Position numbers and translations under genes: made by a program
Assembly: GCA_001724275.1 (NCBI GenBank)
Contig: MEDZ01000009.1
Span: 1-64,000 of the forward strand
Reading direction: 5' to 3'
Origin: Gemmatimonadetes bacterium SCN 70-22
Lineage (GTDB): Bacteria; Gemmatimonadota; Gemmatimonadetes; Gemmatimonadales; Gemmatimonadaceae
DNA length: 64,000 nt
Shown here: piece by piece, positions 6,070 through 24,634 of the stretch
Numbering within the stretch: position 1 is the stretch's first letter
Layout of the letters: each line of letters opens with the position of its first letter
Notes under the pieces: model-generated
The model's database searches: none
What the model was told of the DNA's origin: nothing
What the model saw: only the letters and a program-made list of their open reading frames with translations

Positions 6070-8085
6070 GTGATCGCCTTCGCGTCGCTCGATGCCGCGA
6101 TGCGGGGGCAGCATGCCGCCGAGGTGTGGGCGCGCCTGCGCGACCGCCACCTGCAACGCGTGGAAGTGCTCGAGGGTGCCGTCCTCGCGCTGATGGATGG
6201 CGCCCTCGACGAGGAGCTGCGCGGGCGCGCGGAGGCGGAGGCGCATGCGCTGGCGGGATCGGTGGGGACCTTCGGGCTGCGCGGCGGGGCGCGCCTCGCG
6301 CGTGCGCTGGAGCAATCGTTCGCCGCGCGCTACACGCTGGGACGTCCCATGGCGGCCCGCCTCGCCGATCAGGTCACGGCGCTGCGGCGTGAACTGGAGC
6401 GCCCGAGGGTCGCCGCCGGCGCTGCTGCCGATATGGATGGGGGGCGGCGCGTCCTGGTCCTGACTGACGATGGGCGCGGCGACCAGTTCGTGACCGAAGG
6501 AGTGACGGCCGGGCTCGAGGTGATGGTGCGCCCGCTGCACGGGGGCCACGTCGCGGTCTTCGAGGAGGCGCCGGACGCGATCGTGGTCGAGGCGGGCGAC
6601 GCCTCGGTCGACGCCGTGGTGTCGCTCCTTGGCTCCCTCGCCGGTCGTGCGACGGGCCCCGTCCTCGTCACCGCGGTCGACGATGACATGGCCATCCGCC
6701 TTGCGATCGCCCGGAGCGGGGCCATCGGTCCGCTCATGGCCGGTCACCCCCCGTCGGCGATCCTCGAGCGTGCCCTCGCGGCCATGCAGGGGCGCGAGGG
6801 CGCCACCGCCTCGCTCCTCGTGGTGGACATCGATCCGTACTCCCTGCAGTCGGTGACGCTCGTCCTGGAACAGGCGGGGCACCGGGTCCACGCTCTCGAC
6901 GCCCCCGCCGGCTTCTGGGAGACGCTGGAGTCGGTCACGCCCGATCTCGTCGTCCTCGGCGCCGAATTGAACGAGGTGACGGGGCTCGACCTCTGCCGGG
7001 CGCTGCGCGCCGATCCGCGCTGGCGCGACCTCCCGGTGATCTTCATGGCTTCGGCCGACGAGGCGCCGCTGGTGAAGGGGGCGTACCATGCCGGAGCAGA
7101 CGATGTGGTCCGGAAGCCGCTGCAGCGCGAGGAGCTCATTGCCCGGGTGGAGAACCGGCTGCACCGCTCGCGCCAGCTGCGCCGGCAGGGGGAGGCCGAC
7201 GCGCTCACCGGGCTCCCCGGACGGCCGAAGGCCGAACGCGAGATCGAGCGCTTCATTCAACTGGCTCGCCGGCACCGGCACGAGGTCACGCTCGTGACCC
7301 TGCGCCTCGACCGCCACGCGGACGTGGTGCAGCGGGCGGGGCAGGGAGCGATGGACGCCGCCGTGCTGGCCTTCAGCCAGGTGCTGCGGCACTCGTTCCG
7401 CTCCGAGGACGTCATCTCGCAGTGGGGGCCTAACGAGTTCGTGGTGGCGCTCTTCGACTCGAACGGCGCCAACGCGGCAGTGCGCGTGCGCGAGGTGATG
7501 GCGGCGCTCCGGTCCCGGCGCTTCCCGGCACCGCCCGGTGAGGCGTTCTCGCTGACCTGCAGCGCGGGCATCGCCTCGTATCCCGAGGACGGCGCCGACG
7601 TGCGCGAGCTGCACGAGGCCGCCGACGCCGCGCTCATGGCGGCGGGGAACGCGGGTATCGACGAGGCGCTCGGCGTCGCCTGCGACCCCAACCGCCCCGC
7701 CACCGGGCGCGCCGACATCCTGCTCGTCGAGGACGATGCGGCGGTGGCCCGGCTCCTGGTGCACGCGCTGGAGAGCCGGCAGTACCAGGTGCAATGGATG
7801 CGCAGCGGACAGGCGGCAGCCGACGCCCTGCTCGGGGCGAAGCCGGCGCTGCGCGCGCGCCTGATCCTCCTCGAGGTCAACCTCCCCGAGCTCGACGGCC
7901 TCGCCCTCCTTCGCAGCCTGGCGGAGCAGGACGTCCTGCGCCACACCCGCGTCATCGTGCTGAGCTCGCGGACCACCGAGGCCGAGACGGTGCAGGCGTT
8001 CGAGCTCGGCGCCTTCGACTACGTCGCCAAGCCGTTCAGCGTCGCGGTCCTGACCGAGCGCATCCGGAGGGCGCTGCGCGCATGA
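6070..8085 (+). CDS. degenerate signalling protein: Hpt, three receiver-like domains and a GGDEF-like domain
   Basis: A 671-residue cytoplasmic protein starting at GTG 6070, preceded by GAGGAGGG at 6058-6065. The N-terminal ~115 residues form an Hpt-like helical domain with an AHALAGS motif (candidate phospho-His 59). Residues ~124-235 form a weak receiver-like domain, ~245-375 a clearer receiver, ~375-530 a GGDEF fold and ~545-671 a C-terminal receiver. The expected phospho-Asp positions read E174, G297 and E602, and the GGDEF signature is GPNEF (453-457), so phosphotransfer and cyclic-di-GMP synthesis look impaired. The switch lysines (about 349 and 654) remain. It overlaps the HEAT-repeat gene by 4 bp. 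It probably acts as a scaffold or constitutive regulator of the downstream polysaccharide machinery; that role is inference. Confidence 0.8.
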   Translation: MIAFASLDAAMRGQHAAEVWARLRDRHLQRVEVLEGAVLALMDGALDEELRGRAEAEAHALAGSVGTFGLRGGARLARALEQSFAARYTLGRPMAARLADQVTALRRELERPRVAAGAAADMDGGRRVLVLTDDGRGDQFVTEGVTAGLEVMVRPLHGGHVAVFEEAPDAIVVEAGDASVDAVVSLLGSLAGRATGPVLVTAVDDDMAIRLAIARSGAIGPLMAGHPPSAILERALAAMQGREGATASLLVVDIDPYSLQSVTLVLEQAGHRVHALDAPAGFWETLESVTPDLVVLGAELNEVTGLDLCRALRADPRWRDLPVIFMASADEAPLVKGAYHAGADDVVRKPLQREELIARVENRLHRSRQLRRQGEADALTGLPGRPKAEREIERFIQLARRHRHEVTLVTLRLDRHADVVQRAGQGAMDAAVLAFSQVLRHSFRSEDVISQWGPNEFVVALFDSNGANAAVRVREVMAALRSRRFPAPPGEAFSLTCSAGIASYPEDGADVRELHEAADAALMAAGNAGIDEALGVACDPNRPATGRADILLVEDDAAVARLLVHALESRQYQVQWMRSGQAAADALLGAKPALRARLILLEVNLPELDGLALLRSLAEQDVLRHTRVIVLSSRTTEAETVQAFELGAFDYVAKPFSVAVLTERIRRALRA

Positions 8086-14905: not shown

Positions 14906-16333
14906 CTATCGCACCCCCACCAGCGCGTGCGCTGCCGCCCGCAGTTTGGCGGAATCGTACCCCAGGCCTGCGCGGAAGACCGTCGTCACGTTGTAGAGAT
15001 CCTTCGCGTCGGTCGCCGGATCGCCCTTCACCACCACCAGGTCGGCCTGGCGCCCAGGGGCCACCGCGCCGATGTCCTGCTCCATCCCCAGGATCCGCGC
15101 CCCGTTGTACGTCAGGACCTGGATCGCCTGCTCGGGGGAGAAGCCGGCCTCGCGAAGCATTTCATAGTTGCGGATGTTCCCGAACCCCGGGAGGAACCCC
15201 GTCCCCCACGGGTCGGAGCCGGCACCGAGGAGGCCGCCAGCCGCAACGAAGTCGCGCTCCCAGCGCATCATCTTCGCCAGGAGCCCGGGGGTCACGACCA
15301 GCCCTCCTTCGGCGAGGCTGGCATGATTCCGCTCCACCTCGCGCCGCACCTCCGGGTCGAGCATCGCCATCGCCGCCGTGTCGAGCCGGAAGCGCTGGGG
15401 CGAGAACGTCTCGTACACCGCCAAGGTCGAGACGACGGCCGACTTCGTCTGCGCCAGTGCCTTGATCGACGCCTGAACCTGGGCGCTCCCCACGTCCACG
15501 TCCGTCTGGACGTGCATGTTCTCGGGCGGGCACGTGTCGGGCTGCTTGCCGGGGACGTAGTCGCTGGCCGTGATGAAACCGTGCTGCAGCGCGTCGATCC
15601 CCAGCGCGGCCGCCTCGGCGAAGGTCACCGAGCAGAGGTGCCCCGTCACCTTCATCCCGCGCGCGTGCGCCTCGCGGATCACGTGCCCCAGCATGGCGCG
15701 CGAGATGCGCCCCTGCACCTTCACCCAACGCACCCCCTCGGCGTGCCAGAAGGCGAGCGATCGCGTTGCCTCGTCAGGCGTCGCCAGCGCCTTGGCGTTG
15801 GCGCTGGTGGAGGCTGCGCCGTCGAGGTAGGGGCCGGTGATGAGGAAGCGGGGGCCGGGGATGCGCCCCTCGTTGACCGCGCGCGCCATGTTCAGCTCCT
15901 GGTACGGGAGCATGCTCCCCGCCGTCATCGCCGTCGTGACCCCAAAGGCGAGATACAGGAGCGGCGCCGAGGTGCTCATCTGCGTGATGCGCTTGACACC
16001 GCCGAAGTAGGTGTGCTCGTGCAACCCTACCAGCCCGGGGATGACCGTGTGCCCGGTGAGGTCGATCGTGCGCGCGGCGGCCGGGATCGCCGTGCTCGCG
16101 GTCGGCCCCACGGCCGTGATGCGCGTCCCGTCGATGATGACCGTCTGGTCGTCGCGGGGGGCGGCACCCGTCCCATCGATGAGACGGACGTGGGTGAGGG
16201 CGACGACGGGGGCGTCGACACTGACGTAGCGGCGCGCCGCGTCGCTCAGCGGCGGGCGACTCTGTGCCGATGCGATGGATCCCGGGAGGGCGAGTGCGGC
16301 AAGCAGGAGCGTGGGGAGGCGACGGGGTGGCAT
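14906..16333 (-). CDS. exported amidohydrolase
   Basis: A 475-residue metal-dependent hydrolase of the amidohydrolase superfamily (imidazolonepropionase/prolidase-like branch). The ATG at 16333 starts a signal peptide of about 23 residues ending IASAQ. The first metal motif is GLHEHT near residue 115, matching the HxH of the family. Further His residues occur in the GHLCSV and LQHGF regions, and the catalytic Asp is in GAGSDPWGTG. It acts outside the cytoplasm on an amide or peptide bond; substrate unknown. It is divergent from the respiratory operon, whose 26-bp palindrome lies 132 bp upstream of this start, so shared regulation is possible. Confidence 0.83.
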   Translation of the reverse strand: MPPRRLPTLLLAALALPGSIASAQSRPPLSDAARRYVSVDAPVVALTHVRLIDGTGAAPRDDQTVIIDGTRITAVGPTASTAIPAAARTIDLTGHTVIPGLVGLHEHTYFGGVKRITQMSTSAPLLYLAFGVTTAMTAGSMLPYQELNMARAVNEGRIPGPRFLITGPYLDGAASTSANAKALATPDEATRSLAFWHAEGVRWVKVQGRISRAMLGHVIREAHARGMKVTGHLCSVTFAEAAALGIDALQHGFITASDYVPGKQPDTCPPENMHVQTDVDVGSAQVQASIKALAQTKSAVVSTLAVYETFSPQRFRLDTAAMAMLDPEVRREVERNHASLAEGGLVVTPGLLAKMMRWERDFVAAGGLLGAGSDPWGTGFLPGFGNIRNYEMLREAGFSPEQAIQVLTYNGARILGMEQDIGAVAPGRQADLVVVKGDPATDAKDLYNVTTVFRAGLGYDSAKLRAAAHALVGVR

Positions 16334-16464: not shown

Positions 16465-16490
16465 ATTGTCAAGGCACTTGCCTTGACAAT
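16465..16490. promoter_or_regulatory. perfect 26-bp palindrome, candidate operator of the oxidase/DUF2249 operon
   Basis: ATTGTCAAGGCA (16465-16476), a CT spacer, then TGCCTTGACAAT (16479-16490): two perfect 12-bp arms. Both strands contain TTGACA, so divergent -35 boxes could be buried in the operator. It lies between the amidohydrolase and ccoN. The regulator encoded at 19649 is the natural candidate to bind here. A TTG at 16483 that could nominally start ccoN falls inside the right arm, which argues for a later start. Confidence 0.7.
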
Positions 16491-16575
16491 TCAACGCCCT
16501 CGAATCATCCTTCGCGCGCCGCAGCGGGACCGTCCCGCCCGCGGCTCCAGGCTCCCATCGTTCGAGAAGCTGCAA

Positions 16576-18027
16576 GTGGCAACGCTGGCAACCCCCGCCC
16601 CCGTCGCGCGTCCCCTTACCGTGGCGAAGAGTCGCGTGGAGGAGCGTTTCGACACCGACGCGCGGCTCACCCGTCTCGTGTACGCCTACCTGGCGACCTC
16701 TGCCGTATGGCTCCTGGTGGGGACGCTGGTCGGGTCGTACCTGTCGCTCAAGTTCATCTGGCCCGACCTGGGGGTGGCGCCGGCGCTCTCGTTCGGACGT
16801 CTCCGCCCCGTGCACGTGAACATCGTCTTCTGGGGTTTTGCCTCGCCGGGGATGCTCGGGCTCGCGCTCTGGGTGGTGCCGCGCACCTGCCGCACCGCGC
16901 TCGCCAGCTACAAGCTGGCCTGGGTCGCCCTGGCCCTCATCAACGCCTCGGTGGTGGCCGGCGCGTTGCAGCTGCTGCTGGGCGTCACCAACGGTTCGGG
17001 CGAGTTCCGCGAGTTCACCTGGCCGGTCATGTCGCTCTTCGCCGCGGCGCTCGTGCTGCTGGCCATCACGCTCTACCGCACCATCGCCCAGCGCGCCACG
17101 CAGGAGATCTACATCTCCAACTGGTACATCCTCGCGGCGCTCCTCTGGACCATCGTCCTGGCGACCATCGCCTACGTCCCCTGGATCCAGAGCGGGCTGG
17201 CCGACACCGTGGTGCAGGGCTACTACATGCACCAGGGGGTGGGGATGTGGTTCACCCCCATGTCGCTGGGGCTCGCCTACTACTTCATCCCCAAGCTCCT
17301 CAACAAGCCGATCTACTCGTACTCGCTCGGCGTGCTGGCCTTCTGGACCCAGCTCCTGTTCTACACGATGATCGGCGGGCACCACTTCGTCTTCAGCCCC
17401 GTGCCGTGGTTGCTGCAGACGGTGGCCATCATCTTCAGCGTCGGGATGCTCGTCCCGGTGGTGGCGGGGACGGGGAACTTCCTCCTGACCATCCGCGGGA
17501 GCACCCGCCCCATCGGCCGCAGCTACTCGCTCCCCTTCATCTTCGTCGGCGTCCTGCTCTACTTCGCCGGCTCGATGCAGGGGACGTTCGAGGCGCTGCG
17601 CTCGCTCAACGAGATGTGGCACTTCACCGACTTCACGGTCGGGCACGCCCACTTCACGATGTACGGCTTCGTCGCCTTCGTCATCTGGGGGGGCGTCTAT
17701 GCCCTCGTCCCGCGCCTGAGCGGGCGCGAGCCGTCGCACGGCGCCATCGGGCTCCACTTCTGGCTGTCGATCGTCGGGCTCGCCGTGTATGTCGGCGCGC
17801 TGTCGATCGGCGGGACGCTGCGGGGGTTGAGCTGGATGTCGGGGGCCCCCTTCATCGAGTCGGTCACGCTCATGGCCCCCTTCTGGCTCGGGCGCGCCGT
17901 GGGGGGGACGCTGATGCTGGCGTCGCACTTCGTCTTTGCCTGGAACCTGTGGCAGATGCGTCCGGCCGCTGCCCGTGAAGTGCAACTGGCGGGGCCCCGC
18001 CGCGCCGCGGAGGCCAGCGTCGCATGA
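16576..18027 (+). CDS. ccoN: cbb3-type cytochrome c oxidase subunit I
   Basis: Catalytic subunit of a cbb3-type heme-copper oxidase, which reduces O2 to water (some relatives also reduce NO) and pumps protons in the inner membrane. About 12 transmembrane helices are visible. The metal ligands are all present: LRPVHVN for low-spin heme b, YYMHQGVG for the first CuB His, GGHHFVF for the CuB His pair, and TVGHAHFT for the heme b3 and heme b histidines. The frame is open back to TTG 16483, but that codon sits inside the palindrome; GTG 16576 (483 residues) is preferred, with GTG 16621 also possible. The stop overlaps the next gene by 4 bp. Confidence 0.88.
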   Translation: MATLATPAPVARPLTVAKSRVEERFDTDARLTRLVYAYLATSAVWLLVGTLVGSYLSLKFIWPDLGVAPALSFGRLRPVHVNIVFWGFASPGMLGLALWVVPRTCRTALASYKLAWVALALINASVVAGALQLLLGVTNGSGEFREFTWPVMSLFAAALVLLAITLYRTIAQRATQEIYISNWYILAALLWTIVLATIAYVPWIQSGLADTVVQGYYMHQGVGMWFTPMSLGLAYYFIPKLLNKPIYSYSLGVLAFWTQLLFYTMIGGHHFVFSPVPWLLQTVAIIFSVGMLVPVVAGTGNFLLTIRGSTRPIGRSYSLPFIFVGVLLYFAGSMQGTFEALRSLNEMWHFTDFTVGHAHFTMYGFVAFVIWGGVYALVPRLSGREPSHGAIGLHFWLSIVGLAVYVGALSIGGTLRGLSWMSGAPFIESVTLMAPFWLGRAVGGTLMLASHFVFAWNLWQMRPAAAREVQLAGPRRAAEASVA

Positions 18028-19055
18028 GGCTCGACTTCCACGAGAACCACCGCCTCCTGTTCGGGACGGTGATCGGCGGCTTCATCGCGCTGAGTGTCGT
18101 CGTCGCCGTCGCTCCCGCCGCCTGGCTCCAGCGCGCGGCGTCGCCCACGCCGGGGTCGCGCCCGCTGACCGCGCTCGAGCAGCGTGGGCTCCAGGTGTAC
18201 CTGTCGGAGGGGTGCGCCTACTGCCACACGCAGCAGGTGCGGGCGCTGACGCAAGACACGACGCGCTACGGCCGCGCCTCGGTGGCGGGCGACTATGCGT
18301 ACCTCGCCCCCGCGGGGGCGTTCCGTCCCACGCCGCGCGTCCTCGGGACGGAGCGCACCGGGCCGGACCTCACCAACATCGCGGCGCGGCAGCCGAGTGC
18401 GGTCTGGCATTACCTCCACCTGTACCAGCCGCGCGCCGTGGTCCCCGCCTCCATCATGCCGTCGTTCCCCTGGCTGTTCGAGGTGCGTGACAGCGCCAGC
18501 GCCGGCGACTCGGCGATCGCGGTCCCGGCGCCGCACGGACCGAGGCACGGGGTCGTGGTGCCGCGGGAGGAGGCGCGGGCGCTGGTGGCGTATCTGCTCT
18601 CGTTGCAGAGCGCCCCGCTGCCAGGTGCAGCGCGCCCCGCCGCCGGGACGCCGGCCGCTCCGCCGTCGGGTGGCGCCGCCGCCTCCCCCACCGCCAGCGG
18701 CAACGCGGACTGGGCGGCCCGAGGGGCGCAGGTCTATTCGGCGAACTGCTCGGCGTGTCACCAGGCGGCGGGGACCGGGCTCCCGGGGACCTTCCCGCCG
18801 CTGGCGGGCGACCCGGTGGTGACGGCGGAGGACCAGACGCGCCACATCGAGATCGTCCTCTTCGGCGCCAGCGGGAGCGAGATCGGCGGGGTGCGCTACT
18901 CGAGCCCGATGCCGGCCTGGGGGGCCACGCTTTCCGACGACGACATTGCCGCCGTCATCAACCATGAACGCAGCAGCTGGGGGAACCGCGCGCCGCTGGT
19001 GACCGCGGCCGATGTCGCTGCCATCCGCGCCAAGGGAGACCATCGTGTCAAGTGA
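18024..19055 (+). CDS. CcoO-type cytochrome c with a fused second cytochrome c domain
   Basis: A 343-residue membrane-anchored diheme cytochrome c. Residues ~11-35 form the N-terminal anchor. Residues ~50-195 match CcoO/FixO: heme motif C64-A-Y-C67-H68, the TERTGPDL segment and an ASIMPSF methionine ligand. A Pro/Ala-rich linker (~197-226) joins a second class I cytochrome c domain with C242-S-A-C245-H246 and a PMPAWG methionine. The fusion could combine the roles of CcoO and one heme of CcoP, feeding electrons to CcoN; no separate CcoP is seen in the operon. It is coupled to ccoN by an ATGA overlap. The domain calls are secure; the CcoP-replacement role is inference. Confidence 0.83.
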   Translation: MRLDFHENHRLLFGTVIGGFIALSVVVAVAPAAWLQRAASPTPGSRPLTALEQRGLQVYLSEGCAYCHTQQVRALTQDTTRYGRASVAGDYAYLAPAGAFRPTPRVLGTERTGPDLTNIAARQPSAVWHYLHLYQPRAVVPASIMPSFPWLFEVRDSASAGDSAIAVPAPHGPRHGVVVPREEARALVAYLLSLQSAPLPGAARPAAGTPAAPPSGGAAASPTASGNADWAARGAQVYSANCSACHQAAGTGLPGTFPPLAGDPVVTAEDQTRHIEIVLFGASGSEIGGVRYSSPMPAWGATLSDDDIAAVINHERSSWGNRAPLVTAADVAAIRAKGDHRVK

Positions 19056-19638
19056 GCGCCACCCGGAGCATTCGCTGGTCGAGGTCTACCTCGACGGCGG
19101 GAGCGAGCCGTTCGCCATGCACGTCCCCCCCGCGCGCTTCGAGCTGGACACGACGCAGCTGGAGGACGGCGTCCACACGCTGCGCTTCGTCGCGCGCGAC
19201 GGCTCGGGGCGGCGCGGCGTGCGCTCGGTCTCGTTCACGGTGCGCAACGGGCCGGGGATTGCCATCGACGGCGTCCGCGAGGGCGACGTGGTGGACGGGC
19301 GGCTGGCGCTCCTGGTCAACGCCTATGGCGCCGGCTACGAGGAACACTGGGAGCCGGCACGGGCCGAGACGCCGGCCCCGATCCCGACCGCGACGTGGGT
19401 CCTGCTGCTGCTCGTCGTGGCGTGGTCGCTCTTCTACCTCGTGCGCAACTGGGCGCCGCGCGGTGGGTGGGACGGCGCCGCACACCACGCGACCGCCCCG
19501 TCCGGCGGGGTCGTCCCCGCGCTGGTGGTGGGGGGGGCGGTGGTCCTGGTCGTCGTCGTCTTTGCGTTAGGCATCTGGTACACCCTGCGTCCCGGCGAGC
19601 AGGGGGCGGATCACATCAAGCGGCGGGTCCTCGAATGA
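19045..19638 (+). CDS. Ig-like domain membrane protein of the oxidase operon, function unknown
   Basis: A 197-residue protein not assigned to a known family. GTG 19045 is chosen because AAGGGA lies about 7 bp upstream; it overlaps the end of the cytochrome gene by 11 bp. Residues ~10-85 look like a beta-rich Ig-like domain of the kind that describes 'DGVHTLRFVARDGSG' strands. Two transmembrane helices follow, about 110-130 and 155-180, separated by a short loop. Its position after CcoN and CcoO suggests an accessory subunit or assembly factor comparable to CcoH/FixH, but the topology differs (soluble domain first). A GTTAGGC word lies at 19566-19572 within the second helix. Confidence 0.6.
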   Translation: MSSERHPEHSLVEVYLDGGSEPFAMHVPPARFELDTTQLEDGVHTLRFVARDGSGRRGVRSVSFTVRNGPGIAIDGVREGDVVDGRLALLVNAYGAGYEEHWEPARAETPAPIPTATWVLLLLVVAWSLFYLVRNWAPRGGWDGAAHHATAPSGGVVPALVVGGAVVLVVVVFALGIWYTLRPGEQGADHIKRRVLE

Positions 19639-19648
19639 GGGAGGCGCG

Positions 19649-20278
19649 ATGCAGCCGACACGCATGACCCCCAGCCATCGTGGCCTCCTCGATGCCCTCA
19701 AGCGCCGCGGGCGCGCCAGCGTCCCGCAGCTGGCAGAGGAGCTCGGGCTCAACATCGAGACGATTCGCGACCACCTCAAGACGCTGGTCGCGCGCGAGCT
19801 GGTGCGGCGCGAGGGGGCGGTGCGCAGCGGCCCCGGGCGCCCGGAGATCGTGTACGCGCTGACCGAATCGGCCGAGGCGCTCTTTCCCCGGCGCGAGGGG
19901 GAGATCCTGCGCGAGCTGGGGGCCTACCTGGTGAAGCACAGGCACGAGCGGCTCCTGCGCGACTTCTTCACCGAGTACATCGACCGGCGACGCGCCGAGG
20001 CGGCGTCGCGCGTGGCGCACCTCGAGGGGCGCGCGCGGCTCGAGGAGGTGGCGCAGATCTTTTCCGAGTTGGGGTTCATGCTGGTCATCGAGGAGCGGGA
20101 CCACACGCCGCGGCTGCGCCTGTGTCACTGCCCGCTGCGCGACCTGGTCGACGCGACGAACATCCCCTGTCGTGCCGAGATCGGCTTCCTGACGGAGCTG
20201 CTGGACGAGACCCTCACCCGCGTGAGCTACATCCCCGAGGGCGACGCCAGCTGCTCGTACGAACCCACGGAGGGATGA
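19649..20278 (+). CDS. SufR-like winged-helix regulator with Fe-S type cysteines
   Basis: A 209-residue DNA-binding regulator. Residues ~8-75 form a winged helix of the ArsR/DeoR type (SVPQLAEELGLNIETIRDHLKTL is the HTH region). The C-terminal half resembles SufR, a repressor that holds an Fe-S cluster and reports Fe-S status or oxidative/NO stress. Its cysteines are C159, C161, C174 and C202; C161 and C174 keep the SufR C-x12-C spacing, but the third SufR ligand position is not Cys, so ligation may differ. GAGGGAGG precedes the ATG. It sits mid-operon with Fe-S carrier genes and an upstream palindrome, so autoregulation is likely by inference. Confidence 0.77.
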   Translation: MQPTRMTPSHRGLLDALKRRGRASVPQLAEELGLNIETIRDHLKTLVARELVRREGAVRSGPGRPEIVYALTESAEALFPRREGEILRELGAYLVKHRHERLLRDFFTEYIDRRRAEAASRVAHLEGRARLEEVAQIFSELGFMLVIEERDHTPRLRLCHCPLRDLVDATNIPCRAEIGFLTELLDETLTRVSYIPEGDASCSYEPTEG

Positions 20279-21366
20279 TGCTGACCGAGGCATTGGTGCG
20301 TGAGGCGCTGGCGGATGTCCCGTACCCGGGGCTTCGCAGCGACATCGTCAAGCTCGGGTTGGTGCGCAGCATCGCGGTGCACAACGATCGCGTGCACGTG
20401 TCGCTGACCTTGTCGACCGAGCGCGAGGACGTTCCCGGGCTGCTGCGCGACGCCATCACGGCGCGACTCGCGCAGGCGGGTGCGGTACGGACGGAGATCC
20501 AGTTGCTCACCCCCGAGCGCAAGCCGGTGGAGCGCGACCCGTGGGCGCGCCAGGGGCGGCTGCCGGGGGCGCGGCGCATCGTGGCCGTGGGGGCGGGGAA
20601 GGGAGGGGTGGGGAAAAGCACCGTCGCGGTGAACCTGGCGCTGGCGCTGCAGGAGTCGGGGCTCAAGGTCGGGCTCCTCGACGCCGACATCTACGGTCCC
20701 TCGGTCCCGGTGCTGCTGGGGCTCGAGGACGGCGCGGCCCGCGCGCGGATGACCGACGACAAGCAGATCGTCCCGCTCGAGGCGCACGGACTCTCGGTGG
20801 TCTCGTTCGGCTTCTTCCTCGGCGCCGAGTCGCCGGCGGTGTGGCGGGGGCCGATGGTCGGGAAGGCGGTGACGCAGTTCTCGCGCGGGGTCGCCTGGCC
20901 GGACCTGGACGTCCTCGTCGTGGACCTCCCGCCGGGGACCGGCGACGTGCCGCTGTCGCTGGCCCAGTCGGTGGTCGTGGATGGCGCCGTCGTCGTGACC
21001 ACCCCGCAGCGCCTGGCCTCGCTCGAGGCGGCGAAGGCCATCGAGATGTTCCGGACGCTGGAGGTCCCGCTGATCGGCGTGGTCGAGAACATGAGCCACG
21101 CCACGTGCGCGTGCGGCAGGCGCTCGCACCCGTTCGGGCGTGGTGGCGGCGAAGCACTCGGGCGCACGTCGAACGTGTCGCTGCTGGGACAACTCCCCTT
21201 CGAGGAGGAGGTCGTCTCGGACGGCGATGGTGGCGTGCCGTCGATGCTCCGGGCGCCGCGCTCGGAGCTGGCGGTGGCGATGCGGGCGATCGCCGCCACG
21301 GTGCGCGAGGTGTTGCAGCTGGACGGGAGCGCGGTCGGCGCCGCCGCAGCGGGAGGGTGCGGGTGA
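20275..21366 (+). CDS. Mrp/ApbC-type Fe-S carrier P-loop ATPase
   Basis: A 363-residue member of the Mrp/NBP35 family, cytosolic ATPases that carry and transfer Fe-S clusters. Residues ~1-80 form the MIP18-like N-terminal domain common in bacterial Mrp. The deviant Walker A is GKGGVGKST (108-116), and switch segments [10 protein letters not shown] and [10 protein letters not shown] follow. The usual C-terminal CxxC cluster motif is here C278-A-C280, one residue shorter, followed by the conserved FGRGGG. The start overlaps the regulator stop (ATGATG). With the MIP18 protein and SufR-like regulator this points to Fe-S delivery for this operon, perhaps for the oxidase or DUF2249 proteins; that link is inferred. 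Confidence 0.87.
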
Positions 21367-22592
21367 GCGCACCGCCGCTTCGGCTCCCCGGCGAGCACTT
21401 CATCGCCGCGATGTCGTTCCTGCTGGTGGGGGCGGGCGGCGTCGTGTGGGTGGCGCCCGCGCTGGCGCTGGGGGCGTATCCCTCGCCCCACGTGGTCGGG
21501 GTGGCGCACCTCTTCACGCTCGGCTGGCTCACGACCTCCATCATGGGGGCGCTGTACCAGTTCCTCCCCGTCGCGCTGGGGCAGCCGATCGCCTCGGAGC
21601 GCGTGGCGCACCTCTCGTTCGCGTTGCACGTGACGGGCGTCGCGGTGTTCGTCCCCGGCGTCGTGCTCGGGCGCGGGGCGCTGCTGCTGTCGGGCATCAC
21701 CGTGCTGGGGACCGGGATCGTCCTGTTCCTCGCCAACCTGGGCGTGACGCTGCGCCGGGCGCAGCGCCGGGACGTGACCTGGTGGGCGATCGCGTGCGCG
21801 GCCGCGTTCCTCGCGGTCACGCTGGTGCTGGGATCGGCGCTCGGCGTCAACCTGCGCACCGGCTTCCTGGGCGGCGTGCGTCCGCTGGCGCTGGGGACGC
21901 ACCTGCACATCGCCCTCGCCGGATGGGTCCTGATGGTGATGGTGGGCGTGTCGCAGCGCCTGCTGCCCATGTTCCTCCTGAGCCACGGGGGCCGCGAGCA
22001 CTTCGCCCGCTGGGCGGTGGCGCTGCTGGCGAGCGGGGCGGCGATGCTGTCGTTCCTGCACCACGTCCCGGTGCTCGGGCGCGAGGTGCCGGCGCTCTGC
22101 CTGGCGGCCGGCGTGGTGGCCTACCTGCTCCAGGCGCGCGAGTTCTATCGGAAGCGGCACCGCCCGGCCCTGGACCCCGGATTGCGGCTGGCGGCAGTGG
22201 CCCTCGCCCTGCTGGCGGTCGCCCTCCCGCTCGGGGGCCTGGTGCTCACGGCCCGGGTGTCGCCGAACGTGAGCACCGCCTACGTGATGGTGATCGTGCT
22301 GGCGTGCGCGCTGTTCGTCGCCGCGCACTACTACAAGATCGTCCCGTTCCTGGTGTGGAACCGGCACTTCGGGCCGCTGGCCGGGACGCGGCCGCTCCCG
22401 CGCGTGGGCGACCTGTACTCGCAACCCGTGGCGAACGGGGCGGTGGGGCTCCTCGTGGCCGGCGTGGCCACGCTCATCGCCTCGGTGGCAGGCGGGAGCG
22501 CCATCGGCGTGCGGTCGGGGGGGGTGCTGCTGGCGGGAGGGGTCGCCATCGAAGCGTTCCAGATGATCGCCATCGCGAGGAGGAGGCCATGA
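21363..22592 (+). CDS. 12-helix membrane protein resembling NnrS / heme-copper oxidase subunit I
   Basis: A 409-residue polytopic protein with about 12 hydrophobic helices and no extra domains. Histidines occur within or beside helices: GVAHLF in helix 2, FALHVTG in helix 3, THLHIAL in helix 6, FLHHV after helix 7 and AAHYYKIV in helix 10. That distribution recalls the metal-ligand positions of heme-copper oxidase subunit I and of the heme-binding NnrS family linked to NO metabolism. The loop signatures of CcoN itself are not present, so I do not call it an oxidase. GTG 21363 overlaps the Mrp stop, and its own stop overlaps the MIP18 gene. A heme-binding or NO-related role is inference. Confidence 0.55.
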
Positions 22593-22900
22593 GTGCGTCC
22601 ATGAGTGCGCCGTCCCCGGCGCCGACAGAAGCGGTCGTGCGCGATGCGCTGCGCACGGTGATCGACCCCGAGATCGGTCTCGACATCGTGACCGTGGGGC
22701 TCGTGTACGAGGTGGAGGTGGTGGAGGGGACGGCCAGGGTCACCTTCACGCTCACCACGCGCGGGTGCCCGATGGAGCGGCACATCACCAACGGCATCGT
22801 GCAGGCCGTGTCGTACGTCCCTGGCATCACGCACGTCGAACCGATCCTGACCTGGGACCCTGCGTGGCACCCCGGGATGATCAAGGAGGGCACATGGTAA
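22589..22900 (+). CDS. MIP18/PaaD-family (DUF59) metal-sulfur cluster assembly protein
   Basis: A 103-residue single-domain DUF59 protein. Family members (SufT, PaaD, CIA2) act in Fe-S cluster maturation of target enzymes. The hallmark segments are [17 protein letters not shown] (residues ~24-40) and TTRGCP, with the conserved C60. AGGAGG lies immediately upstream; the ATG overlaps the preceding stop and the TAA overlaps the following ATG by 7 bp, so translation is coupled on both sides. A full-length Mrp is two genes upstream, so the operon carries two DUF59-type domains. Confidence 0.88.
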
Positions 22901-23412
22901 GTCCGCTGGAGGAGTCGTTCCCGCTCGCGTTGCAGGTGGTGGACGCGGCGAAGGTGGTGGAAGCCGACGTGCGCGAGGACCTGCGCGCGGGGCGCGAGCC
23001 CTTCGCCCGCATCATGGCGGCGCGGCGCGAGGTTCCCGACGGGGGCGCGCTCGTGGTGCGCGCCATCTTCGAGCCGGCGCCGCTGTACAAGGTGATGGAG
23101 AAGCAGGGCCTCGCCCATCACACCGAGCGGCTCGCCGACGACGATTGGCGCGTCTGGTTCTACCCCGAGGTGCCGGTGCTCGACGTGCGCGGGATGGAGC
23201 CTCCCGAGCCGTTGTCCCACACCCTGAACGCCGTCGCGACGCTCCCGGAGGGCGGGGTGTTGGTGCAGGTCAACGTCCGCGTCCCCCAGTTCCTGCTCCC
23301 GAAGCTCGCGGAGCAGGGGTGCACGCACGAGGTGCGCGAGGTGGCGCCCGATCGCGTGCACGTGTTCATCCGCCGGGCGTCTCCGGCAGTTGCAACTTCC
23401 CTTTCAGCCTAG
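22894..23412 (+). CDS. tandem DUF2249 protein
   Basis: A 172-residue protein made of two DUF2249 domains. The first (~13-92) begins VVDAAKVV and includes a [10 protein letters not shown] helix; the second (~96-163) begins [12 protein letters not shown] and ends with a HVFIRR strand. DUF2249 is a small alpha/beta fold, often annotated SirA-like, found beside hemerythrin, cbb3 oxidase and NO-stress genes; its biochemical role is unknown. Only one cysteine is visible (QGCTHE, about residue 150). The ATG overlaps the MIP18 stop by 7 bp. Domain 2 resembles the neighbouring stand-alone copies, so duplication within the operon is likely. Confidence 0.78.
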
Positions 23413-23424
23413 GAATTCCCGATC

Positions 23425-23661
23425 ATGTCCGAGTCCCGTACCCTCGATGTCCGCGTCATCCCCCCGCGCGAGAAGCACCCGACGATCTTCCAGACGTTCG
23501 CCTCGCTCAAGCCCGGCGAGTCGTTCATCCTCCTGAACGACCACGACCCGCGCCCGCTGCGCTACCAGTTCGAGTACGAGCACCCGGGGCAGTTCGGCTG
23601 GAACTACCTGGAGCAGGGGCCCGCCGTGTGGCGGGTGGAGATTTCCCGGGTGCCGGCGTGA
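23425..23661 (+). CDS. single-domain DUF2249 protein
   Basis: A 78-residue DUF2249 domain starting LDVRVIPPREKHPTIF and ending WRVEISRV. Characteristic features are the central FILLNDHDPRPL strand-turn and the EQGPAVW segment shared with the copy at 24401. No Cys is present and no signal is seen, so it is cytosolic. It follows the tandem protein by 12 bp and overlaps the next gene by one base. In family terms the HDPRPL turn suggests a metal- or anion-binding site, but nothing is proven. Confidence 0.8.
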   Translation: MSESRTLDVRVIPPREKHPTIFQTFASLKPGESFILLNDHDPRPLRYQFEYEHPGQFGWNYLEQGPAVWRVEISRVPA

Positions 23662-24404
23662 TGCGGAGCGGGCTGTCGTCGGCGGCCGCCCCGGATGCCC
23701 CGCTCGAGGCGCTGATCTCGGGCGCGCTGCGCCACGGGCTCGCCGCCCTCGAGCTGCGTGCCGGCGATGCGCACGGGGTCTCGGGGGTGCTCGCGGCGCG
23801 TCATGGCGCCGCGCGGGAGGCGGTACAGCTGGCGGAGGCCGCGCGCGTGGCCATCGCCGGATATCGCGACACGGGCCGCGACGACGAGGAAGCCCTCGTG
23901 GGGCTGTCGCGCGAGCTGGGGAGCCCGCTCCTGGTGGATGCGTCGACCGACCTCGAGGAGCGGCTGGCCCGGGCGGTGCGCCTGCGAGAGTCGGGGGCAG
24001 CGGTCGCGGTGGTGGTGCGTGGCTCGACGGCTGCGGCCGACGCCGTCGTGGTCGCGCACCGCGGCCTGAGCGTCGCGTGGGACGCCGATCCGGCGCAGGG
24101 CCCGCTGGGGGCGACGGCGTCGCAGCTGCTCGCCCACTGCAGCGCGGCGCTCACCCATGTGCGCCTGCTGGGCGGGGGGCCCGAGAGCGTAATGCACGAG
24201 GGGCGCGGCGTGGGGGAGCTGATGGCGCGGCTGGCGCTGTCGGGATTCGGGGGTGCGGTGATCCTCGCCCCCAGCTCCACGCGCTTCCATGTGGCGTGGG
24301 CCACGTGGCTCGGGCGGCGCGGAGGGTGGGGGTGCGGGAGCCACGCCTCGGACCCGTCACTGGTCTCACTCGACTCACCACCAGTGGCAGGAGACGCAGC
24401 ATGA
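23661..24404 (+). CDS. TIM-barrel-like protein of the DUF2249 operon, unknown function
   Basis: A 247-residue soluble protein. The order of segments suggests the xylose-isomerase/AP-endonuclease-2 type TIM barrel: GLAALELRAGD near residue 30, LLVDASTDLEER near 93, LSVAWDADP near 138, LTHVRLLGGG near 165 and the GEG-like EGRGVGELMARL followed by GFGGAVILAPSS. It is shorter than typical sugar-phosphate isomerases and lacks the usual strings of metal-binding Glu/His residues, so it may bind rather than isomerise. It starts on the last base of the preceding stop and ends overlapping the last DUF2249 gene by 4 bp. Function unknown. Confidence 0.5.
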   Translation: MRSGLSSAAAPDAPLEALISGALRHGLAALELRAGDAHGVSGVLAARHGAAREAVQLAEAARVAIAGYRDTGRDDEEALVGLSRELGSPLLVDASTDLEERLARAVRLRESGAAVAVVVRGSTAAADAVVVAHRGLSVAWDADPAQGPLGATASQLLAHCSAALTHVRLLGGGPESVMHEGRGVGELMARLALSGFGGAVILAPSSTRFHVAWATWLGRRGGWGCGSHASDPSLVSLDSPPVAGDAA

Positions 24405-24634
24405 GCGAGACGCATCGCCTCGACGTCCGCCCCGTCGAGCCGAAGGATCGGTTCGAGTGCATCATGGGGGCATACGAAGGGCTCGTGGACGGCGGGGTCC
24501 TCGAATTGACCGTGGACCACGACCCCAAGTGCATGTACTACACGCTGCGCGCAACGCGCGGCGACGACGCCTTCACCTTCGACTACCTCGAGGAGGGACC
24601 CGAGACCTGGCGCGTCCTGGTGCGCAAGCGGTGA
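24401..24634 (+). CDS. single-domain DUF2249 protein, last gene of the operon
   Basis: A 77-residue DUF2249 domain beginning RLDVRPVEPKDRFECI and ending WRVLVRKR. It shares with the 23425 copy the central VDHDPKCM turn and the LEEGPETW segment, and adds two cysteines, one in FECI and one in PKCMYY (about residues 20 and 46), that the other single copy lacks. The ATG overlaps the TIM-barrel stop. Nothing coding follows on this strand for 193 bp, so the operon probably ends here. Confidence 0.8.
   Translation: MSETHRLDVRPVEPKDRFECIMGAYEGLVDGGVLELTVDHDPKCMYYTLRATRGDDAFTFDYLEEGPETWRVLVRKR

Follow-up and report, generated by a model that had tools for sequence, protein, structure and literature searches.

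A conserved palindrome as the probable operator of a SufR-like regulator heading an oxidase/DUF2249 operon in Gemmatimonadota

A perfect palindrome at positions 16465–16490 of the 64,000-nucleotide stretch of DNA analysed here (the window) very probably serves as operator for the SufR-like regulator whose gene lies at 19649–20278. The right arm would include the −35 box of the promoter that drives the operon; with the regulator bound, the operon would be repressed. Sequence comparison with relatives shows that the site is real and conserved, that it accompanies the regulator gene and that it overlaps a promoter. The features concerned are:

16465–16490, no strand: predicted operator, perfect 12-2-12 palindrome ATTGTCAAGGCA-CT-TGCCTTGACAAT (left arm 16465–16476, spacer CT 16477–16478, right arm 16479–16490), from sequence and conservation in relatives
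16466–16489: conserved core TTGTCAAGG-N6-CCTTGACAA, inside the palindrome
16483–16488, plus: TTGACA, predicted −35 box of the promoter, in the right arm; relatives have TTGACN with a −10 kept 17 bp downstream
16506–16511, plus: predicted −10 box CATCCT, 17 bp downstream of the −35 box; CATTCT in both sister species
14906–16333, minus: divergently oriented gene of an exported amidohydrolase, unlikely to be a target
16576–18027, plus: cbb3-type (C-family) cytochrome oxidase subunit I, ccoN-like (Pfam COX1, 1.3e-81; below the ccoN equivalog cut-off)
18024–19055, plus: FixO/ccoO-like subunit fused to a cytochrome c (ccoP-like) subunit
19012–19638, plus: oxidase-cassette membrane protein, no family match; its start may be 19045 or later
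19649–20278, plus: SufR-like winged-HTH regulator with C-X12-C-X27-C, the proposed ligand of the palindrome
20275–21366, plus: Mrp/ApbC-type Fe-S carrier ATPase with an FeS_assembly_P domain
21363–22592, plus: membrane protein with weak COX1 similarity only, below the Pfam cut-off
22589–22900, plus: DUF59/FeS_assembly_P (SufT-like) protein
22897–23412, plus: DUF2249 protein (a)
23425–23661, plus: DUF2249 protein (b)
23658–24404, plus: 248-aa protein conserved in these operons, without a Pfam match
24401–24634, plus: DUF2249 protein (c)

The palindrome is kept within the genus

The palindrome lies between the divergent amidohydrolase gene and the cbb3-type oxidase gene. An earlier note on this DNA had described it as a perfect 12-2-12 repeat carrying TTGACA on both strands inside the arms. 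Sequence and coordinates proved exact, and TTGACA is found at 16483–16488 on the plus strand and 16472–16467 on the minus strand. It is the sole perfect inverted repeat in the window with an arm of at least 12 and a spacer of at most 8, where chance predicts 0.2 such repeats and 0.05 that are exactly 12-2-12 (40 first-order Markov randomisations of the window, which keep its dinucleotide make-up). Taken alone, the symmetry is only moderately unusual. No further copy occurs in the window, nor in the 4.70-Mb genome at up to three mismatches.

Orthologues of ccoN and of the amidohydrolase are present in both other genomes of the genus, G001 and G002. The palindrome is kept at the same place in all three (TTGTCAAGGCACTTGCCTTGACAA in the genome studied here, TTATCAAGGAATATCCCTTGACAA in G001 and TTGTCAAGGGATTTTCCTTGACAA in G002), and the surrounding intergenic DNA, the flanks and the spacer have diverged. 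The six inner bases of the core vary across the three species; variable inner bases between conserved half-sites are as expected for an operator bound by a dimer. The −35 box alone could account for part of the arm conservation but not for the left arm.

The site follows the regulator across genera

Orthologues of the regulator, at 40–78% identity, were found in about 19 of the 395 Gemmatimonadota genomes sampled, a phylum assignment that was inferred from the named records; related loci also occur in records labelled Acidobacteria, Thermoanaerobaculia and Thermoleophilia. The scan of named genomes for the regulator used a 12-sequence subset of a 21-sequence alignment. In G215, G302, G181, G247, G013, G041 and G333, the core TCAAGG-N6-CCTTGA stands upstream of the regulator or its operon with at most one mismatch (G013 has one core mismatch). 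All seven loci lack the ccoN head, and a site that stays upstream of the regulator even without ccoN indicates that it follows the regulator and not the oxidase. This pattern favours the 19649 regulator as the ligand of the palindrome, as the earlier note had supposed.

Counts of sites agree with this association. At up to three mismatches, the 12 regulator-bearing genomes hold 11 sites, 10 of them at the regulator locus. In a held-out test, a matrix derived solely from core sites was applied upstream of 18 further regulator genes, Acidobacteria records among them; 14 scored above the 95% shuffle level, where about one is expected by chance. No clear site directly adjoins the orthologues in G281 and G203 or one of the G145 copies on their upstream side. 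Across relatives the site adjoins the regulator gene or its operon and overlaps a promoter, the arrangement of an autoregulatory operator, and the conservation of position and sequence beside the same regulator in other genera is judged to be far beyond chance.

Candidates for a wider regulon were sought by pattern search. At two mismatches, the 395 genomes gave mostly isolated matches fitting chance, and a mirror-image control pattern was similar in number; only near-perfect sites from this search were therefore used. Near-matches in the orthologue-free genomes G018 (near groEL), G198 and G122 share no operon genes and were treated as chance. The G018 near-copy, TTGTCAAGGTATTGTCCTAGACAA (L091:5001–5035), is overlapped by a further repeat, and no orthologous regulator was found there.

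The right arm overlaps a conserved promoter

The −10 box lies exactly 17 bp past the operon-facing TTGACN. It reads CATCCT in the genome studied here, CATTCT in G001, G002 and G181, CATCAT and CATGAT in G215, CATACT in G247, TATTGT in G041 and TAAGCT in G302; CATNCT agrees with TATAAT at only three of six positions. The opposite, amidohydrolase-facing arm has no such conserved −10. Since the right arm contains the operon −35 box, a bound protein should repress both the operon and the regulator itself. The conserved footprint and the −35/−10 geometry thus support the role of operon operator that had been proposed for the site.

The palindrome also contains a TTG at 16483, the nominal start pointed out previously, but only in this genome is it in the reading frame of ccoN. 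Upstream of the GTG, the frame is free of stops in G001 and G002 no further than to the right end of the palindrome, which makes a ccoN start inside the palindrome impossible in both. All three species of the genus share GTG 16576 and the codons after it. We accordingly assign the ccoN start to GTG 16576 on comparative grounds; the stops between palindrome and GTG in the sister species also uphold the warning that ccoN starts annotated upstream of 16576 would be wrong.

Other readings of the site

It is unlikely that the symmetric site is, in addition, a divergent promoter/operator controlling the amidohydrolase, a role that would add to the best explanation rather than compete with it. The genome studied here does have a minus-strand TTGACA with a possible −10, TACCAT, at 19-bp spacing, and in other genera the site precedes divergent genes, fumC in G041 and ScdA_N in G215 and G181, which it could co-control. 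However, G001 and G002 lack a conserved −10 on that side, the amidohydrolase adjoins the site within the genus only, other genera having the site without it, and the function of the gene is unrelated. The earlier suggestion of divergent control of the amidohydrolase is for these reasons not sustained.

FNR and HcpR boxes have the form TTGA(T/C)-N4-(A/G)TCAA, and the GTCAA and TTGAC words of the palindrome resemble parts of such FNR-family boxes. Yet the half-site order here, GTCAAGG-N6-CCTTGAC, is the opposite one, and the site tracks the SufR-like gene and is nearly confined to its locus, which would be expected for autoregulation but not for a global regulator. We therefore consider it improbable that some other dimeric regulator with its gene elsewhere, such as one of CRP/FNR or HcpR type, binds the palindrome as its operator and also controls the operon. 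Action as RNA, in a hairpin terminator or attenuator, is highly improbable: the 12-bp stem is perfect, but the loop is only 2 nt with no T-run, the position at or upstream of the −35 box places the palindrome outside the operon transcript, and a variable spacer between conserved positions suits a protein-binding site. That the palindrome arose by chance around a −35 box, as the 0.2 equally perfect repeats expected per window might allow, is refuted to near certainty by the retention of both arms in the genus and seven further genomes.

The regulator resembles SufR but is distinct from it

The candidate ligand of the operator, the 19649 regulator, has Pfam matches to HTH_24, HTH_20 and HTH_5 and thus the N-terminal ArsR/DeoR-type winged HTH of SufR. 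Its structural model (mean pLDDT 89) has a winged HTH at the N terminus and an alpha/beta domain at the C terminus. Residues 1–75 resemble MarR/ArsR winged HTHs (Z about 12), and Foldseek and VIA-align returned matches to the winged HTH only, the C-terminal domain having been searched as part of the whole. Three cysteines, C161, C174 and C202 when numbered from the 19649 start, are invariant in 21 orthologues with the SufR ligand spacing C-X12-C-X27-C; the extra cysteine of the published C-X12-C-X13-C-X14-C motif is absent. Against TIGR02702, the NCBIfam SufR equivalog, the regulator scores 47.8 bits, under the cut-off of 178.8, but the model is cyanobacterial and failing its cut-off is by itself weak evidence against SufR identity. 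The operon of the regulator contains no suf genes.

Cyanobacterial SufR shares with the predicted system an N-terminal winged HTH, C-terminal cysteines as [4Fe-4S] ligands, a palindromic operator and autorepression of its own operon (PMC8593673). It differs in that its operator is CAAC-N6-GTTG (PMC8593673), in place of TTGTCAAGG-N6-CCTTGACAA, and in that its target is suf instead of an oxidase/Mrp/DUF59/DUF2249 operon; the present regulator also falls far under the SufR equivalog cut-off. The cysteine spacing is identical to that of C203, C216 and C244 in Mycobacterium tuberculosis SufR (Rv1460), all of which are needed for function (PMC6034842). Holo-SufR of M. tuberculosis represses, and nitric oxide destroys its cluster and causes derepression (PMC10848736), an inactivation that fits the gene content of the present operon. 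Rv1460 controls suf genes, whereas here a separate SufR homologue stands at the suf operon. By analogy, the 19649 regulator likely binds a cluster and represses in the cluster-bound form.

Paralogous SufR-type regulators, at 31–35% identity, provide a control. The operator core is present at none of 12, and a CAAC-N6-GTTG-like box lies upstream of 6 of these 12 (1.5 expected) versus 2 of 25 orthologues (1.6 expected), an excess that is suggestive, not strong. The paralogue in the genome studied here (G000, contig C71) heads a SufB/SufC/SufD/NifU-type operon and scores 112 bits against TIGR02702. Being suf-linked and the better fit to SufR (112 versus 47.8 bits), it indicates that two separate regulators coexist in the genome, a SufR homologue linked to suf and the one at 19649. 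The earlier label 'SufR-like' thus holds as to resemblance, and needs the qualification that the protein is a paralogue, with another homologue at the head of the sufBCD-type genes. In our reading the 19649 protein would be a SufR-like paralogue that uses a separate operator and governs a regulon of iron-sulfur/nitric oxide type; its binding, cluster and signal are predictions. In another genome, G005, a SufR-type paralogue is preceded at about 60 bp by a perfect SufR box, CAACAGTTTTGTTG (L039:1404–1417), which suggests canonical SufR control in Gemmatimonadota.

Operon content

The operon common to relatives comprises the regulator, the Mrp-type carrier, the COX1-like membrane protein, DUF59, three DUF2249 proteins and the 248-aa protein, and often adjoins ScdA_N, the N-terminal domain of the RIC repair protein. 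In the present genus the operator is separated from the regulator gene by the ccoN-ccoO-19012 cassette. G373 has a related oxidase cassette on a contig in which the regulator was not found, which argues that the cassette was probably inserted into an existing operon downstream of its operator. A homologue of the 19012–19638 product, which has no Pfam or NCBIfam match, recurs after ccoN-ccoO in G373. The 248-aa protein (23658–24404) lies between two DUF2249 genes in most related operons. For 21363–22592, an NnrS-like name taken from gene context found no Pfam support and was dropped.

Proposed mechanism and relation to known systems

We infer physical binding, repression as the direction of control, the type of cluster and the signal as follows. 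A regulator dimer would bind the two TTGTCAAGG half-sites through its N-terminal winged helices and, lying over the −35 box in the right half-site, would exclude RNA polymerase. Repression would cover the oxidase genes and the Mrp-DUF59-DUF2249 genes further down the operon, and the regulator would also repress its own gene. Loss of, or damage to, a [4Fe-4S]-type cluster would release the regulator and allow the operon to be expressed; that the cluster-bound form is the repressing one is carried over from SufR. The damaging signal is most likely nitric oxide, and could also be oxidants or iron shortage; whether nitric oxide is the main signal we regard as an even call.

NsrR and other nitrosative-stress regulons include ScdA_N, Fe-S repair and respiratory proteins. 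The target genes here are of that nitrosative-stress type, but the regulator is outside the Rrf2 family and its operator is unrelated. Fumarase C is an iron-sulfur-free enzyme. In M. tuberculosis the DUF59 protein SufT interacts with SufR (PMC9045647). DUF2249 genes of Thermus (DrpA/DrpB, PMC6282519) and haloarchaea (PMC11218638) are associated with nitrate respiration or denitrification and, as here, with an iron-sulfur carrier P-loop NTPase, but no SufR-like regulator with the present operator has been described for those systems. The operon content, the SufT–SufR and DUF2249–denitrification links and fumC at the G041 site all fit a response to nitric oxide or iron-sulfur damage. We lean towards a separate Gemmatimonadota/Acidobacteriota branch of SufR-like repressors that would have its own operator, sense nitric oxide or Fe-S damage and control Mrp/DUF59/DUF2249/ScdA_N genes, the genus having added an oxidase cassette under iron-sulfur control.

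What is apparently new is not the principle but the sequence that a SufR-like paralogue would recognise and the genes that it would control; neither the regulator nor the operator was found described in the open-licence literature, which is weak evidence of novelty. For a SufR-like regulator, and in phyla whose gene regulation is poorly charted, the analysis offers an operator, a promoter and a short list of candidate targets; it also opens a way to the DUF2249 proteins. Two SufR-type paralogues with distinct predicted operators in one genome also make a clean system for the separation of paralogous repressors.

Three related loci have features of their own. In G041 (L079:7552–9066), a perfect operator core lies between the regulator and the divergent class II fumarase gene fumC. 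G215 has a second operator copy 2.7 kb from the first, the operator and the following ScdA_N reading frame being duplicated together (L072:6263–9196); the ScdA_N copy at 6299 runs into a folate dehydrogenase-like domain and appears fused or broken. Finally, L096, labelled Thermoleophilia, carries a 66% identical regulator with the whole DUF2249 operon, reflecting either recent transfer or a mis-binned contig.
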